Positions 5,574-13,598 of a DNA stretch of 64,000 nucleotides are shown here, piece by piece. How positions within the stretch are numbered: the first letter of the stretch is position 1; every line of letters begins with the position of its first letter. The notes under the pieces are model-generated. The model was not told where the DNA came from. It ran no database searches and worked only from the letters and a program-made list of their open reading frames with translations. Source of the DNA: Nitrospira sp. (GTDB lineage: Bacteria > Nitrospirota > Nitrospiria > Nitrospirales > Nitrospiraceae); contig JADYYH010000024.1 of assembly GCA_020853775.1 (NCBI GenBank), positions 1 to 64,000 of the forward strand, written 5' to 3'. The translations under genes were made by a program, and so were the position numbers.

Positions 5574-6254
5574 ATGCCCGCCGCCATCCTCCAGACTCTC
5601 TACCGAACAGGTTCGCGCATCCTCTGGATTCTGCCCCTCTGTGCCTGCCTCTTCCTCACGCCACTGCGACCAGCTGCCGCAGAATCAGTCGTCGAAGTTC
5701 CCATGTTGGCTGCTATTCAGGCTAACAATCTGGGCGTCTTCGAAGTACTCCTGATGCGCTGGGATCATCAGCCGACGCCTTCTCCGGCCATGCTGCAGTG
5801 GCAAGGCGGGAACATCAAACCCGGACAGACCAACCTTGGATCTTTGGCCCTCGCCTTCCAATATGCTCTCGAACATACGTCGACTGTTGACCACACCGGA
5901 ACGGTCAGTGTGATCGGCATTGCCTATACGGCAACCGGCACCGACGGGCCGAGCGCCGGAGGCGTCATGACGGTGGGATTTGCCGCACTCCTCAAAGGGG
6001 ATCAGATCCGTCGCGGAATTGCCATGACCGGCACCATCTCCCCAAACGGCACGATCGGCCCGGTGGGAGGCATTCCTGACAAAATCCGTGCAGCAGCCCG
6101 CGAAGGATATCGCACCATCCTCATTCCGCAGGGTCAACGGGACGATCCGCACTGGAACCTGCCCCGCCTGGCCTTGGAGCTCAATGTAGACATCAAAGAG
6201 GTCTCCACCGTGGATGAGGCCTACCGTCTCATGACAGGGGGCACTCTCAATTAG
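5574..6254 (+). CDS. exported Lon-type (S16) protease domain protein
   Basis: This is a 226-residue protein with a signal or anchor (residues about 14-36, ending LRPAAA) followed by a lone Lon proteolytic domain with no ATPase. The catalytic pair is visible: Ser127 in TDGPSAGGVMTVG and Lys170 in GGIPDKIRAA. The spacing of 43 equals that of E. coli Lon (Ser679/Lys722). TGTISPNGTIGPVGGI is also the family signature. It probably cleaves peptides or proteins outside the cytoplasm without ATP. No Shine-Dalgarno is seen; a promoter lies immediately upstream. It stands alone between two minus-strand genes. Family confident, substrate unknown. Confidence 0.85.
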   Translation: MPAAILQTLYRTGSRILWILPLCACLFLTPLRPAAAESVVEVPMLAAIQANNLGVFEVLLMRWDHQPTPSPAMLQWQGGNIKPGQTNLGSLALAFQYALEHTSTVDHTGTVSVIGIAYTATGTDGPSAGGVMTVGFAALLKGDQIRRGIAMTGTISPNGTIGPVGGIPDKIRAAAREGYRTILIPQGQRDDPHWNLPRLALELNVDIKEVSTVDEAYRLMTGGTLN

Positions 6255-8308: not shown

Positions 8309-9802
8309 ATGAAAGCTGCCGCAGCCATACAAGAACCGCTCAATCTGAGCGGCGAGACACTCAATCTGCTCGCCTGGCGTATCCCCGACCTGGTCGCCTA
8401 CCAGCATGCCTTTGACGAATGGTGGTTGGCGCCCCTCGATGACGATTTTCCACTCGTTCGCCTGAACGCAGTCGGCATCGAAATGCTCACCTCCATGAAC
8501 GGCCACATCACCGTCGGTGCACTCGTGGAGAAATACGGCCATAAGATCTGCGGGCCTGACGGTCAGCCAGGATCGTGGCATCTGGCACGCTGGTCGATCC
8601 CCAACTATTCACTCTGTTATTTCGGGACCGAACCGCCGGGAGGCCACCGACACAAGGCCAAATGGGATCTGCTGCTCCAACAAATACGTGAGAGCTGGTC
8701 CGGACAACAGGATTTCGAAGGCGAAGAGCACCTCGAAGATTTCCATGTTCACGAGCTCAAAGAGAGTGATCTGGAGGACGGCCACTTCGATCTCATTGAA
8801 ACGACCGTCTCGCACCTCTTCCGGGAGCCCTGTGAGGCCCTGGGGGGCACCACCTATGGACGCCTGCTCATGCGCCAGCTGCGCCGATTGGGCTGGTTCA
8901 AACCGAAACCCAAGGTGATCGTGGAAATCGGCGGCGGACTCGGCTATGTCGCCCGCGAACTCGGGCAAGAGCTGTTGCCCTTCGAAAAGCAGGGCATTCA
9001 GTATATTTCCTTGGACGTGACTCGCCCGTTCCTCCAACTACAGACCAAGCGCGCCAAGGCCGGGGGCTGGACCGGTACCGGCACTCATGCCAATGGGGAA
9101 TGGCTGCCGTTTCGGGACAACTCGGTCGACCTCATCATCGACAATGAGAACATGGCGGACATGACCCCCGTGAAGCTGAGCCGGAAAGAGCTCACCGAGG
9201 GGAACGGTGAAACGGCGCAACATCAGGAAGCGTTGGATTGGATCAGGCGGCTGCGGTTGCCACTCGAAAAAGATCTCCCAGAGGAAGTAATCTTCAATCT
9301 GGGGCCGATGCGATTTGTCGCCGAGGTCTGGCGAGTCCTTAAACCAGGAGGCCGGGCATTTCTCACAGAATTCGGGATCGAGGAGGGTTGGCCAGCAGCC
9401 GTCAAACTTCCACATCACACCGAGTACGAAGTGCAATATAGCCATTTGCGGCAAGCCGTGCGGTGGCTGGGCTTTCAGGAACGCTATCTGTCGCTGCCGC
9501 AATTTCTGCAGATCAAACCGGATACGAAGGTGCTCTGCACCGGCGCAGCCTATACGATTCAGCGCTTTTGCCAGGGACTTGGCCAACACTTTGCCGTGCG
9601 GGCGTACACCGAAAGCGAGCTCACCAAGACGTTAGGCGCTATCCTTCCGAAACTCCAAGGCTGCCACTACCACGATATTGCCGACCCTGCCTGGTTCGGC
9701 CTGATCGACTTCAAGGTTTTACTCCTCGAGAAGCCAGGCGGCATCCCTCAGGCGACCTTCACCGAACAAAAGAGCGGCCTGCGCTGGTATTCACAGCGGT
9801 AG
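8309..9802 (+). CDS. PqqD-like domain fused to SAM-dependent methyltransferase
   Basis: This is a 497-residue cytoplasmic protein. Residues about 40-75 (FPLVRLNAVGIEMLTSMNGHITV and what follows) resemble the PqqD winged-helix fold that presents peptide substrates in RiPP pathways. From about residue 190 a class I methyltransferase follows, with motif I VEIGGGLGYVA at 205-215, an acidic end to strand 2 (ISLDVT), DLIIDNENMADM, and VWRVLKPGGRAFLTEFG. The C-terminal 100 residues are specific to this protein. No Shine-Dalgarno is seen before ATG 8309. There is no precursor peptide or radical-SAM gene nearby, so the peptide link is inference. The substrate is unknown. Confidence 0.75.
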   Translation: MKAAAAIQEPLNLSGETLNLLAWRIPDLVAYQHAFDEWWLAPLDDDFPLVRLNAVGIEMLTSMNGHITVGALVEKYGHKICGPDGQPGSWHLARWSIPNYSLCYFGTEPPGGHRHKAKWDLLLQQIRESWSGQQDFEGEEHLEDFHVHELKESDLEDGHFDLIETTVSHLFREPCEALGGTTYGRLLMRQLRRLGWFKPKPKVIVEIGGGLGYVARELGQELLPFEKQGIQYISLDVTRPFLQLQTKRAKAGGWTGTGTHANGEWLPFRDNSVDLIIDNENMADMTPVKLSRKELTEGNGETAQHQEALDWIRRLRLPLEKDLPEEVIFNLGPMRFVAEVWRVLKPGGRAFLTEFGIEEGWPAAVKLPHHTEYEVQYSHLRQAVRWLGFQERYLSLPQFLQIKPDTKVLCTGAAYTIQRFCQGLGQHFAVRAYTESELTKTLGAILPKLQGCHYHDIADPAWFGLIDFKVLLLEKPGGIPQATFTEQKSGLRWYSQR

Positions 9803-9818: not shown

Positions 9819-9955
9819 TCAATGGCCGTCAATGTCGGATACGTCTACGGACGCATCAGATTCAGGTGGATGAGGTCGCGCGCCTCCCCGTGCCCCCAAC
9901 CAGCCATCAAGAGTATCAAGGTCGTCGTCTTCAAGCAACCGGCTTTTAGGAGGAC
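9819..9955 (-). pseudogene. 3' part of a small membrane-protein gene split by an IS
   Basis: Read on the minus strand, this gives a PPKSR junction and then LLEDDDLDTLDGWLGARGG, ending SDIDGH with TGA at 9819-9821. The frame matches that of the 5' part at 12403-12615 once the IS and one copy of its 17-bp target duplication (CCGGCTTTTAGGAGGAC) are removed. The rebuilt protein would be about 111 residues. Confidence 0.85.
9939..9955. repeat. left copy of 17-bp target-site duplication
   Basis: CCGGCTTTTAGGAGGAC is repeated exactly at 12403-12419. The length fits the ISTde1-like subgroup of the IS1202 family (15-18 bp). Confidence 0.85.
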
Positions 9956-9961
9956 TGTAGA

Positions 9962-10011
9962 TAGCACATGATCTGTCCGCTTTTTGTAGCACATGAGTTG
10001 TCCGGTTTTTA
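9962..10011 (+). repeat. two tandem 25-bp end repeats of the IS1202-type element
   Basis: Copies lie at 9962-9986 (TAGCACATGATCTGTCCGCT and a T run) and 9987-10011 (TAGCACATGAGTTGTCCGGT and a T run). The inverted partner at the right end is 11316-11334. These are probably transposase binding sites. Confidence 0.8.
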
Positions 10012-10032
10012 TGGTGGGCCCCAGGAGGGCCC

Positions 10033-11298
10033 ATGATGAGCTGGACGACGGTGCGGCAGGAGGTGAGACTGATGCGATTTGAAGAATTGTATGAGCGGCG
10101 GCAGCGACGGGAGTTGACGATGGTGGAGGCGGCGGCGAGCCTCGGTGTCACGGAGCGGACGTTTCGCCGCTGGAATGGGCGCTATGAAGCCGAGGGGAGG
10201 GTCGGATTGCAGGATCGGCGCCTGGGCCGGGCATCCGCCCGCGCGGGACCGGTGGATGAAGCCCTGCGGATGGTGACACGCTATCAGACGCAGTACACGG
10301 GCTGGACCGTGAAGCACTTCCACGAGCACTGGCATGCGGAGCATGGCGGGACGCGGTCCTATACGTGGACGAAGAAGCTCGTGCAAACTGCCGGGCAGGT
10401 GGCCCGCGCGCCCCGGCGCGGCGCCCATCGGAAGAAGCGGCCCCGCAAACCGTTGCCCGGTATGATGCTGCATCAAGACGGGTCCACCCATACCTGGGTG
10501 CCGGGCTGCCAGTGGGATTTGATTGTGACGCTGGATGATGCGACCACGGAGCTCTATTCAGCCTTCTTCGTCGAGGAAGAGGGCACCATGAGTAGCTTCC
10601 AGGGGTTGCGGGAGGTCATTGAGCGGAAGGGCCTCTTCAGTTCCCTCTATACCGATCGGGCGTCGCATTATTGGTATACCGAGGCGGCGGCGAGCAAGGT
10701 CGATAAGCGCCGGCTCACGCAGGTGCACCGTGCCTTGCAGCAATTGGGGATCACCCTCATCCCAGCGTATTCGCCGGAAGCGCGGGGCCGTTCGGAGCGG
10801 GTCTTCCGGACCCTGCAAGATCGGTTGCCGAAAGAATTGGCCCTTGCGGGGATCACAGACATGGCGGCGGCGAATCAGTATCTCGTGGAGCGGTTTCTTC
10901 CCGCCTACAACCGCCGCTTTGCGGTGCCAGCCGCTGAAGCAGGCACTGCCTTTGTGCCCTGGATCGGGACCGGCCTCGCCGATCTGCTCTGTGTCCAAGA
11001 AGACCGCGTCGTCGCGAACGACAATACCGTGCGGTATCAGGGCCAGACGCTGCAGAGCCCCCAAGACCCGCACCGCTTCCATTAGGTGAAGGGCACGGTC
11101 CGGGTCCATGCCTATCCGGATGGCACCTTGGCCGTGTTCCATGGTCCCCGGTGCTTGACGCGGTACCATGGGAATGGTCAGTTGATGGAGCCCGACGCTG
11201 CCCCGCGATGCCGCACCGGCCTGACCCACCGATCGGATGTCTCGCCGATCGTCGATTCTAGGTCAACGGGGCGCGAAAGAATTTCAGCACGCAGATGA
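10033..11298 (+). pseudogene. IS1202/ISNCY-family transposase with in-frame amber codon
   Basis: From ATG 10033 the frame has an N-terminal helix-turn-helix (MVEAAASLGVTERTFRRWNGRY), a DDE integrase core (HQDGSTHTW, LIVTLDDATTELYSAFFVEEEGT, then RSERVFRTLQDRLPKEL) and the C-terminal beta domain. A TAG at 11083-11085 splits HRFH from VKGTVRVHAYPDGTLAVFHG. Relatives have an aromatic residue there, so a Tyr codon has probably become TAG. The frame continues to TGA 11296-11298. The catalytic core precedes the stop; only the conserved C-terminal domain (about 70 residues) would be lost. Confidence 0.85.
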
Positions 11299-11338
11299 AA
11301 TAGATAAGAGGAAAAGCCGGACAGATCATGTGCTCGCG

Positions 11339-12362
11339 GATTCAAGTAACCAGTGCATAAGTTCACCGACAGCGTGATGGAGTAACCTCTTGGCACACCA
11401 AGGGGTTACGAATGAGGACGTATCGTCGGATCACGTACGAAGATCGATGTCAGATGTACGCCTTGCGGAAGGCAGGCAAGACACAGGTCGAGATCGGCCG
11501 GGCACTGGGGTTTAGCCAAGGGACGGTTAGCCGGGAGCTTTCCCGGAACACGGGGCAGCGGGGGTATCGCTTTCAGCAAGCCCAGCGCAGGGCGCAGTCC
11601 CGACAGCAGCAGATCCGGCATCAGCCGCGCAAGCTGACGGGCCGTGTTCGTCGCACCATTGCCCGCAAGTTGCGGGCTGAACGCGGAATATCCCTCAGCC
11701 ACGAATGGATTTACCGGATGATCTGGGATAATAAGCGCGCCGGCGGCGACCTCTGGCGTTTCTTGCGGCGGCGTGGCAAGAAATACAACCGGCGTGGGGC
11801 GCAGCACGCGGGCCGCGGAGTGATTCCCCATCGGATCGACATCGCAGAACGTCCTGCGATCGTTGCCCGCAAGTCACGGCTCGGTGACTGGGAGGGCGAC
11901 ACCATCGTGGGCGCACAACACAAAGGGGCCCTGTTCACCCATGTCGAGCGCAAAAGCCTGTTCACCACCATCTCGAAACTGCCCCGCCCGACGGCCACGG
12001 CCGCTCACCGCGCCACTGTGCATCGGCTGAACCCGTTGCGCGACCACGTCCACACCATCACCTACGACAACGGCAAAGAGTTTGCCGGACACCGGAAAAC
12101 CGCCCATCTCCTGCGCGCCCAGGTCTTCTTTGCCACGCCCTATCACGCGTGGGAACGCGGCGTGAACGAGAACACGAATGGCCTCATCCGGGACTTCTTC
12201 CCCAAAGGCACGGACTTCACTACAATCCATCCGGCGACGGTGGCGAAGGTGGAGCGCCTGCTCAATCGGAGACCTCGCAAATCGCTCGGCTTTCAAACGC
12301 CCAACGAGGTCTTTCACACGCTGGCTAAACGGGGCTGATGTTATGCACTGGGAAGTTGAATC
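11339..12362 (+). mobile_element. IS30-family element inserted in the end of the IS1202-type element
   Basis: The element is bounded by 22-bp inverted repeats at 11339-11360 and 12341-12362, with 19 of 22 matching and a shared CCAGTGCATAA core. It is 1.02 kb, typical for IS30. It interrupts the right terminal array of the IS1202-type element, so it arrived later. The short target duplication cannot be fixed by eye. Confidence 0.85.
11412..12338 (+). CDS. IS30-family transposase
   Basis: This is a 308-residue protein with an N-terminal helix-turn-helix (RRITYEDRCQMYALRKAGKTQVEIGRALGFSQGTVSRELSRN) and an IS30-type DDE core: Asp in RLGDWEGDTIVG, Asp in TYDNGKEFAGH, and Glu in RGVNENTNGLIRDFFPKGTDF. 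It appears about 15 residues shorter than relatives between the two domains: the usual WSPEQIAG motif is missing just before RAERGISLSHEWIYRMI. An in-frame internal deletion is therefore likely and activity is doubtful. ATG 11412 lies 52 bases inside the left end. Confidence 0.88.
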   Translation: MRTYRRITYEDRCQMYALRKAGKTQVEIGRALGFSQGTVSRELSRNTGQRGYRFQQAQRRAQSRQQQIRHQPRKLTGRVRRTIARKLRAERGISLSHEWIYRMIWDNKRAGGDLWRFLRRRGKKYNRRGAQHAGRGVIPHRIDIAERPAIVARKSRLGDWEGDTIVGAQHKGALFTHVERKSLFTTISKLPRPTATAAHRATVHRLNPLRDHVHTITYDNGKEFAGHRKTAHLLRAQVFFATPYHAWERGVNENTNGLIRDFFPKGTDFTTIHPATVAKVERLLNRRPRKSLGFQTPNEVFHTLAKRG

Positions 12363-12402
12363 TGCGGCTACATAAACCGGACAAGTTAACTTGCTATCTA
12401 CA

Positions 12403-12419
12403 CCGGCTTTTAGGAGGAC
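12403..12419. repeat. right copy of 17-bp target-site duplication
   Basis: An exact repeat of 9939-9955. Confidence 0.85.
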
Positions 12420-12615
12420 GAGTTCGATCAGTCGTAGTATGCAGCACGAGGTGACATAAGCCAGCACCAAGGAATGGTACGAGCCAAATAACTATGACCT
12501 GGATATTTTTTTGAGCGCGACTATATTCCGATGCCCCCACTACTCTGACCGTCACGTAAACCTGGTAGCAGGCAATGCCGACTAGGAGAACCACGACGAG
12601 ATATTCAACCTTCAT
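12403..12615 (-). pseudogene. 5' part of a small membrane-protein gene split by an IS
   Basis: ATG at 12615 (GGAGGAGAACTC upstream) starts MKVEYLVVVLLVGIACYQVYV, followed by a second hydrophobic segment (NIQVIVIWLVPFLGAGLCHLVL) and RTRPPKSR, where the IS enters. The remaining reading frame is at 9819-9955. The intact protein would have two membrane helices and an acidic cytoplasmic tail. The function is unknown. As it stands it reads a few IS-encoded codons (CR) to a stop at 12394. Confidence 0.85.
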
Positions 12616-12638: not shown

Positions 12639-13598
12639 CTATCCCTGCCTCAACATATTTGCCAAGTGCAGGAGCACGCCCTCACGCAAGCCGAGATCGC
12701 TGACGAGAACGTTCGGCATGCCCAGCGTCTCCATCATCGTCCTGAGAATGATCGCACCGGCAACAATGACATCCTCTCGTCCTCGCTCCAGGCCTGGCAA
12801 TCCCTCCCGTTGTTGTTTCGATCGCCGAAGAAGCTGTGCTTCCAGACATGTTACCGCGTCGAGCGCCAGAACATAGTTGTGAATCCTGGCCGCTTCATAC
12901 GCGGCCAGCTGCTGGTCCATCGCGGCCAGCGCGGTAATGGTTCCCGCCGTGCCGACAAAGGTCAGTCCGGCCGGCAAGGGCATACCGGCAACGGCTGCTT
13001 CAGTCTCGGTTCGTATCCAATCACGCGCTTGCCGAAGTTCCTCGGCAGTAGGCGGGTCGCTGGGCAACAGGCGCTCGCTCAGACGCACCACACCGATATC
13101 CATGGATCGCACGATGAGCGGTTGGCCAGGTCGATCCAGAATACATTCCGTACTTCCACCGCCGATATCCGCCGCCAGCACGTCGGTGACACCTGCAGGG
13201 AGACCGGAGCGAATCCCGAGTGTGGTTCGTCGCGCTTCCTCCTCACCGGAGATGATCTCCACCTGCAAACCGGCTTCACGCGCGACCAAGTCTACGAATG
13301 TTTGACGGTTCCCGGCATCGCGCACCGCACTCGTGGCAACCACTGCCGTCGCCTCCACCCGGTACGTATCAATGATCTGGTGCCATTCTTTGAGGGTCGC
13401 CACCACACGCGCCATGGCATCGGCTCGTAACAGACGATCTCGATCAACTCCTTGGCCGAGTCGAAGGATTCGTCGATCGGATTGCAGTTTGGTGATATGC
13501 CCCAATCGAGTGACTTCAGCAATCTCCAAGCGGCAAGTCAGGGTCCCGATATCGATTCCGGCGAAGATTCGTGGAGGAGCCGTCGATGCGCCAGCCAT
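12639..13598 (-). CDS. ppx: Ppx/GppA-family phosphatase (exopolyphosphatase)
   Basis: This is a 319-residue protein with the sugar-kinase/HSP70/actin fold of Ppx/GppA. It releases phosphate from polyphosphate or hydrolyses pppGpp. Motifs are present: FAGIDIGTLTCRLEIAEV at the start, VVATSAVRDAGNRQTF, the catalytic region EIISGEEEARRT, and ADIGGGSTECIL. The length matches the short single-module form, so the HD-like C-terminal domain of long Ppx proteins is absent. It is followed 8 bases upstream by a small coiled-coil gene and then recG, probably one minus-strand unit. Ppx versus GppA cannot be separated by reading. Confidence 0.88.
   Translation of the reverse strand: MAGASTAPPRIFAGIDIGTLTCRLEIAEVTRLGHITKLQSDRRILRLGQGVDRDRLLRADAMARVVATLKEWHQIIDTYRVEATAVVATSAVRDAGNRQTFVDLVAREAGLQVEIISGEEEARRTTLGIRSGLPAGVTDVLAADIGGGSTECILDRPGQPLIVRSMDIGVVRLSERLLPSDPPTAEELRQARDWIRTETEAAVAGMPLPAGLTFVGTAGTITALAAMDQQLAAYEAARIHNYVLALDAVTCLEAQLLRRSKQQREGLPGLERGREDVIVAGAIILRTMMETLGMPNVLVSDLGLREGVLLHLANMLRQG

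Follow-up and report, generated by a model that had tools for sequence, protein, structure and literature searches.

Among the insertion sequences (IS) of the IS1202 family, the long-duplication group, which includes ISTde1 and ISCARN53/62/63, is described in the accessible part of PMC10132070 as having no conserved target and as lacking independent examples, and no target was reported for it in the open-access literature searched, that part of PMC10132070 included. In the ISAjo2 group, which also belongs to this family, that source describes a single 5-bp duplication between the IS and a XerC site and proposes contact with bound XerC. Among unrelated elements, TnGBS and its relatives insert upstream of sigmaA promoters, at 15-17 bp from the -35 box, and ISKra4-group elements share this promoter preference, contact with the RNA polymerase initiation complex having been proposed (PMC3942029). 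Here we describe an IS1202-family element in a 64,000-nucleotide stretch of Nitrospira sp. (GenBank assembly GCA_020853775.1, contig JADYYH010000024.1, positions 1 to 64,000; hereafter, the window), together with its relatives. We think it likely that this element, of the long-duplication kind, split a small gene and was later itself hit by an IS30-family element, and that its relatives insert at promoter-like sequences in a fixed geometry.

The element closely resembles the published long-duplication group. The insert occupies positions 9956-12402 (2447 bp), and directly outside its ends, TGTAGATAGC (9956) and GCTATCTACA (12402), stands an exact 17-bp direct repeat, CCGGCTTTTAGGAGGAC, at 9939-9955 and 12403-12419. 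An 18th base (A) is also identical at both copies, and was assigned to the IS as its last base because the ends then pair as TGTAG...CTACA. The repeat was as the original prediction had described it, and its length agrees with the 17 bp given for ISTde1 in the accessible part of PMC10132070. As far as that source goes, the outer IS has in common with the group the transposase family, TGT...ACA ends, an inner repeat of the terminal sequence near each end (the left one at 9987-10010), a length of ~1.4 kb and a glutamine seven residues past the catalytic glutamate (E255 and Q262, invariant in four transposases). Duplications of 16-17 bp are likewise given there for ISTde1 and ISCARN53/62/63, whereas the duplications of IS1202 and ISSeq2, also members of the group, measure 27-28 bp; the group is marked by duplications of more than 15 bp, and those found here were 17 bp at this locus and 15-17 bp over the 33 sites described below. 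The transposase gene (10033-11085, + strand; 350 aa, then a stop) matches NF033594 (ISNCY_2; E 2.5e-95; 319.8 bits versus a cut-off of 250), in agreement with the family originally proposed. Without the nested IS30-family element and one of the latter's duplications, the outer IS measures 1412 bp, within the family's 1.3-1.75 kb; uninterrupted relatives measure 1411-1412 bp (1411 bp for the copy in genome G014). Its left part (9956-11334, + strand, 1379 bp) is 80% identical to the G014 copy, and positions 12366-12402, which take in the severed right end (12370-12402, + strand, 33 bp), are 97% identical to the end of that copy. The 350-aa transposase falls outside the family range of 394-507 aa; beyond the early stop the frame is still open and still similar to relatives (11086-11301, + strand), and a 420-aa transposase is encoded by three copies in the genus (G014 and orthologous copies in G006 and G026). 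We read the window copy as a damaged member of the IS1202 family, not of a different family; what sets it apart from the group as published (PMC10132070) is the early stop and the split right end and, in its relatives, a shared promoter-like target.

The evidence for that target came from a survey of insertion sites. IS copies were gathered from Nitrospirota, and ends and duplication were recognisable in 43 rows; after removal of 10 duplicates, 33 distinct sites from 23 genomes remained, the window's included. The duplication was 17 bp long at 16 sites, 16 bp at another 16 and 15 bp at one. CAA (TTG when read outward) abuts the left duplication in 27/33 sites, compared to a background of 1.7% in the flanks, with T or G, then G, as the most frequent bases before it. 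A second signal lies in the left flank, consisting of A at -29, T at -25 and A at -24. Read on the opposite strand, the left flank thus takes the form TTGNNN, 17 bp, TANNNT, a match to a sigma70-type promoter that would have its -35 box against the duplication and point away from the IS. TANNNT occurred in 18/32 left flanks at a spacing of 17 and in 5/32 at a spacing of 18 (23/32 at 16-18 bp), in two at a spacing of 19, and in 0 or 1 of 32-33 at each other offset scanned.

To score these matches, bases agreeing with TTGACA plus TATAAT were counted (maximum 12) at 31 sites, L110 (left flank 88% like that of L088) and L080 (short flank) being left out. The mean score at the left edge was 7.94/12, versus 3.84 (standard deviation 0.40) at the other 41 offsets; one base off the left edge it was 5.2-5.3, and none of 5000 shuffles reached the observed sum. 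The mean score at the right edge was 4.32 versus 3.84. Both boxes were found in 20/33 left and 2/33 right flanks, compared to 32 of 127,920 window positions. The two sites with the promoter-like sequence on the right, L076 (TTGACG-N18-TAGACT) and L120 (TTGACC-N17-TAGAGT), are cases in which the IS orientation is flipped. A symmetric TTG motif was ruled out, with TTG on the left at 27/33 sites and on the right at 3/33, one site having both.

A further 18 left junctions, from loci without a recognised duplication, had not been used for motif discovery. In 10/18 of these, the distance between the IS end and a TTG was 16 or 17 bp (three distances were allowed, each with a background of 1.7%), and TANNNT stood at a fitting distance in 9/18. 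Outside Nitrospirota, two of three plasmid-borne copies, whose left IS ends were picked by eye, fitted the pattern: in a Mesorhizobium copy, TTGTCA-N17-TATATG lies at 17 bp from the IS end and precedes a gene annotated as a Phd/YefM antitoxin, and a Desulfolutivibrio copy has TTGACA at 16 bp and a weak -10 box. The Methylosinus copy had neither box at its left end. Insertion sites were also seldom within long open reading frames (ORFs): among sites with at least 500 bp on each side, 3/25 lay inside an ORF of at least 150 aa, compared to 2346/5045 control positions taken from the flanks of all sites, in what is a rough ORF count and not a gene prediction. Taken over Nitrospirota, a preference for promoter-like targets is statistically well supported by these sequence comparisons.

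The comparison shows an order of parts in which the left end of the IS is followed by one copy of the duplication (16-17 bp), the -35 box, a spacer of 16-18 bp and the -10 box, placing the IS ~52 bp upstream of the presumed transcription start with its transposase gene directed away. Because of this fixed geometry, the core promoter would be left intact. The transposase may find its target by touching promoter-bound RNA polymerase holoenzyme, in which case the cuts would fall at the upstream edge of the -35 box on one strand and 16-17 bp farther from the promoter on the other. Similar logic has been described in two settings. In the ISAjo2 (ISAba32) group, as in the elements studied here, the left end lies by the target with one duplication copy between, the orientation is fixed and a host protein binds the target site, whereas the duplications are only 3-5 bp and the targets are dif-like XerC/XerD sites, not promoters (PMC10132070). 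TnGBS/ISLre2/ISKra4 elements also insert upstream of promoters, TnGBS and relatives at 15-17 bp from the -35 box, and mostly in one orientation; however, their transposase is Mutator-like, of another superfamily, and the end that faces the promoter is the right one in TnGBS/ISLre2 and either in the ISKra4 group, whereas it is the left one here (PMC3942029, accessible sections). The IS1202-type copies do insert ~15-17 bp upstream of the putative -35 box, as Mutator-like elements do, and their duplication exactly fills that gap; no Mutator-type match was among the family-scan results for the transposase. Since promoter targeting is already known in the unrelated TnGBS/ISLre2/ISKra4 elements, the behaviour proposed here would be a variant of a known one. 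More tentatively, and with a little less than even confidence, we suggest that long-duplication IS1202 transposases dock on RNA polymerase holoenzyme, much as their short-duplication cousins appear to do on XerC; family-wide, the left end would come to lie one duplication length from a DNA-bound host protein, whose footprint would set that length.

An alternative is that the transposase itself reads a fixed motif (TTG[AC]C at the cut plus TA...T), promoter likeness being a by-product without any role for RNA polymerase. TTG is indeed the strongest signal (27/33), six sites with enough flank have TTG without a fitting TANNNT, and the transposase carries N-terminal helix-turn-helix (HTH) domains, two relatives matching sigma70 region 4 weakly and below the cut-off (E 0.016 and 0.031). 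A directly read motif would, however, fit poorly with a -10 part whose distance from the -35 part varies between 16 and 18 bp and which retains the most important bases of -10 boxes; with sites such as L087, L113 and L121 that combine a good -10 with a poor -35; or with the scarcity of sites within long ORFs. We regard direct motif reading as rather unlikely.

Several observations weigh against promoter targeting as we propose it. The test on the 18 further junctions was not blind, as these had already been displayed before the test was designed, and TTG was missing in 8/18 of them (the end of L134 is probably misplaced). Among the 27 sites with TTG on the left, seven had no TANNNT at a spacing of 16-18 bp (L072, L088, L110, L127, L133, L145 and L080, the last having too short a flank), and L060, the closest copy in the genus, had no promoter-like sequence on either side. 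Only 13/33 sites had, in the promoter direction, an ORF of at least 80 aa with its start no more than 330 bp away, three of the 33 having shorter flanks. The promoters are predictions from sequence under a sigma70 consensus that was assumed for Nitrospirota, and contact between transposase and RNA polymerase is something that we only infer. Finally, the window's own site is a poor example. Its -35-like hexamer TTGCTT (9933-9938, - strand) is directly beside the left duplication copy and its -10-like hexamer TACTCT (9910-9915, - strand) follows after 17 bp, yet only 6/12 bases of the whole, TTGCTT-N17-TACTCT (9938-9910), agree with the consensus, a score reached by 7.4% of window positions, and the site falls within the small gene. 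Both boxes as an exact pair occur far less often than that score level (32/127,920 positions), and the site fits the promoter pattern weakly.

These weak boxes are what might be expected if insertion were near-random, the promoter match in the window being due to chance and the event an ordinary gene disruption; IS insertions into dispensable genes are common. Against this stand the rarity of both boxes in correct placement (32 of 127,920 positions) and the enrichment in the 33 sites and 18 further junctions, which goes far beyond chance. For the single window site chance is possible; for the group, the enrichment speaks against it, and we consider near-random insertion improbable overall. Under promoter targeting, the IS may have taken a weak promoter-like sequence within the small gene, the break of which would be collateral damage.

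The proposal gives a concrete, testable answer to a question open in print, namely what long-duplication IS1202 elements aim at. A 2023 paper in Plasmid on an IS1202 subclass reportedly distinguishes three subgroups of the family, with ISTde1 duplications of 15-18 bp, and may cover targets. If true, it would add to the Mutator-like elements a further origin of promoter targeting in bacterial DDE transposases, and both halves of the IS1202 family would follow a common rule of IS end, one duplication and host-protein site. Such targeting would account for the rarity of these elements within long genes and point to places where they may rewire regulation.

The gene in which the window copy sits can be rebuilt from its two flanks. 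The 5' part (12403-12615, - strand) carries residues 1-71, both hydrophobic segments and one duplication copy, its extent resting on the join of frame and flank and on a relative in genome G008; the 3' part (9819-9955, - strand) carries the acidic tail, the stop TGA (9821-9819) and the other duplication copy. When the flanks are joined with one copy of the duplication, a single minus-strand frame of 110 aa ending in TGA results, while the other two frames across the joined flanks have many stops; the join had been foreseen correctly, with a length given as about 111 residues. The two membrane helices and acidic tail predicted for the product are seen as hydrophobic segments spanning roughly residues 1-28 and 34-61, where mean hydropathy over 19 residues peaks at 2.0 and 2.4, respectively, and as 11 D/E versus 2 K/R among the last 39 residues. 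A search with the joined protein covered 100 genomes, the window's own and 99 relatives, 28 of these from the same genus. The uninterrupted protein looked for in relatives was present, in one piece, in G008 (67-68% identical, ~109 residues; 67% over residues 1-109), ungapped across the junction and between the same two neighbours, which supports a single gene split by the IS. The only other match, in G041 (E 5.6e-4), was weak and was set aside since the matched frame is part of a longer ORF of a different look; also set aside were weak hits in G050, G276, G068 and G218 (E up to 0.01), of which G068 encodes a small protein of similar look, 26% identical.

If the two fragments were separate, real genes, or if the small ORF were no gene, one might expect what is in fact seen in part: conservation is lower in the tail (26% nonsynonymous difference, ratio 0.45), and most relatives searched lack the gene. 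The G008 relative spans the junction without a gap, however, the ratio of nonsynonymous to synonymous differences is 0.38 over the whole frame, distant relatives of the protein directly follow ppx in G265 and G425, and two separate genes in these places, the situation named as refuting the original prediction, were seen in none of the genomes searched, including the 28 other genus genomes, in which G008 gave the sole match; we hold this explanation to be very improbable. An assembly artefact uniting unrelated pieces is even harder to credit: the assembly (4.25 Mb) is in 121 contigs and its read support is not known, yet both nested elements have exact duplications, relatives have matching ends and the frame heals exactly. 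As an event, the break is ordinary, in a gene that few of the relatives searched have, and the original prediction was correct in its facts and described something ordinary in kind.

How the small gene is distributed can be followed through its neighbours, each of which was searched for in 29 genomes of the genus. Apart from the window, both neighbours share a contig in 22 genomes: G008 has the small gene, 16 have at most 183 bp between the neighbour matches (gaps computed by hand), and five have 0.8-3.5 kb of other DNA there with no convincing trace of it. The neighbours are on separate contigs in four genomes, and the match to the methyltransferase-like gene is missing in two. With a family-wide profile, a homologue was found in 5/175 genomes (the window's, G008, G265, G425 and G428). 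Since it directly follows ppx in the first four, the relatives in G265 and G425 being distant, the gene appears to be old at this place and readily lost, and it looks dispensable. The G428 homologue matches from residue 36 onward only; lacking the first ~35 residues, it ends beside an ORF that, read by eye, resembles a zinc-ribbon transposase (L154, 1441-2520), which may mean that a different element has broken this gene a second time, independently.

In the comparison of the window with G008, the nonsynonymous to synonymous ratio was 0.32 for residues 1-71 and 0.45 for the tail, the less conserved part. Constraint on the gene is weak beside the ratios of 0.012 (methyltransferase-like gene) and 0.035 of its neighbours, which are rough because their synonymous sites are near saturation. 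Four-fold sites differed at 13/41 positions in the small gene versus 216/366 in the neighbours (P = 0.0013), and its GC content at third codon positions (GC3) was lower, 0.44-0.47 versus 0.61-0.71. Because of these fewer four-fold differences and the lower GC3, plain inheritance by both lineages is doubtful, and some lateral exchange of the gene between the window and G008 lineages is suggested; as a counterpoint, the place of the gene appears old because its distant relatives follow ppx in G265 and G425. The protein had no Pfam match above cut-off (best DUF4538, E 0.12), nor had two relatives, and no match in NCBIfam or among plasmids; PHROGs gave weak matches only. For the G008 protein, AlphaFold run on the single sequence gave a poor model (mean pLDDT 50), which was not used. 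As a guess, made with low confidence, the product may be an accessory inner-membrane protein made with Ppx.

The insert consists of two elements, one nested inside the other, on which the original prediction was silent. The inner one is a 1032-bp IS30-family element (11335-12366, + strand) with ends CGCGGATTCAA / TTGAATCTGCG and a GCT duplication at 11332-11334 and 12367-12369, and it cuts the outermost 33 bp of the outer element's right end from the remainder. Its 308-aa transposase (11412-12338, + strand) matches NF033563 with 251.3 bits versus a cut-off of 80, and IS30-family duplications are 2-3 bp long, so that transposase family and short duplication are both as in that family, with no notable difference. 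Elsewhere in the genome, the ends of two related pieces agree with those of this element exactly or to within one base. The sequence shows insertion of the IS1202-family element into the small gene directly after ppx, formation of the 17-bp duplication and, later, insertion of the IS30-family element. That the insertion is simple, as had been claimed, is not supported, since it carries the nested element and its transposase stops 70 codons before those of relatives. The claim that it is fairly recent holds only in relative terms: the two duplication copies have stayed identical, yet there has been time for a second insertion and a stop.

Because of this stop and the nested IS30, the window copy is probably unable to move by itself. 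Searches of its own genome found no second copy, although assemblies can lose repeats; two distant matches to the transposase family were below cut-off (39.7 and 20.9 bits). N-terminal HTH domains are present in the transposase, family scans gave rve/HTH and ISNCY_2/IS481-type matches, and a profile search found no solved structure. Among other copies, L061/L062 (G006 and G026) are an orthologous, older copy with changed ends and no clean duplication that still shows TTGCTG-N17-TAGAAT at 16 bp from the IS end. G268, a one-contig genome, has seven copies with identical transposase proteins (L072, L100 and L120-L124), probably a recent burst. On the Mesorhizobium plasmid (L147, 2099-2422), the distant copy is upstream of a Phd/YefM-VapC toxin-antitoxin pair.

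The split gene lies between two neighbours. Directly upstream and co-directional, with 23 bp from stop to start, is the Ppx/GppA phosphatase gene (12639-13598, - strand; PF02541, E 8.5e-66), and convergent with the split gene, 16 bp from the stop of the latter, is the methyltransferase-like gene (8309-9802, + strand; PF08241, E 4.8e-10). The methyltransferase-like protein had matches in 27/29 genus genomes, with 91-98% identity in the 26 others, a conservation unusually strong for a gene without specific annotation. The gap between this gene and ppx is variable in five genus genomes (L066-L070; G020, G001, G007, G017 and G004), where, read by eye, it seems to hold an IS3-like pair of transposase genes, genes resembling toxin-antitoxin systems, and further ORFs. 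Elsewhere in the window, a 226-aa ORF (5574-6254) has a C-terminal half that, by eye, resembles a Lon-type S16 protease domain.

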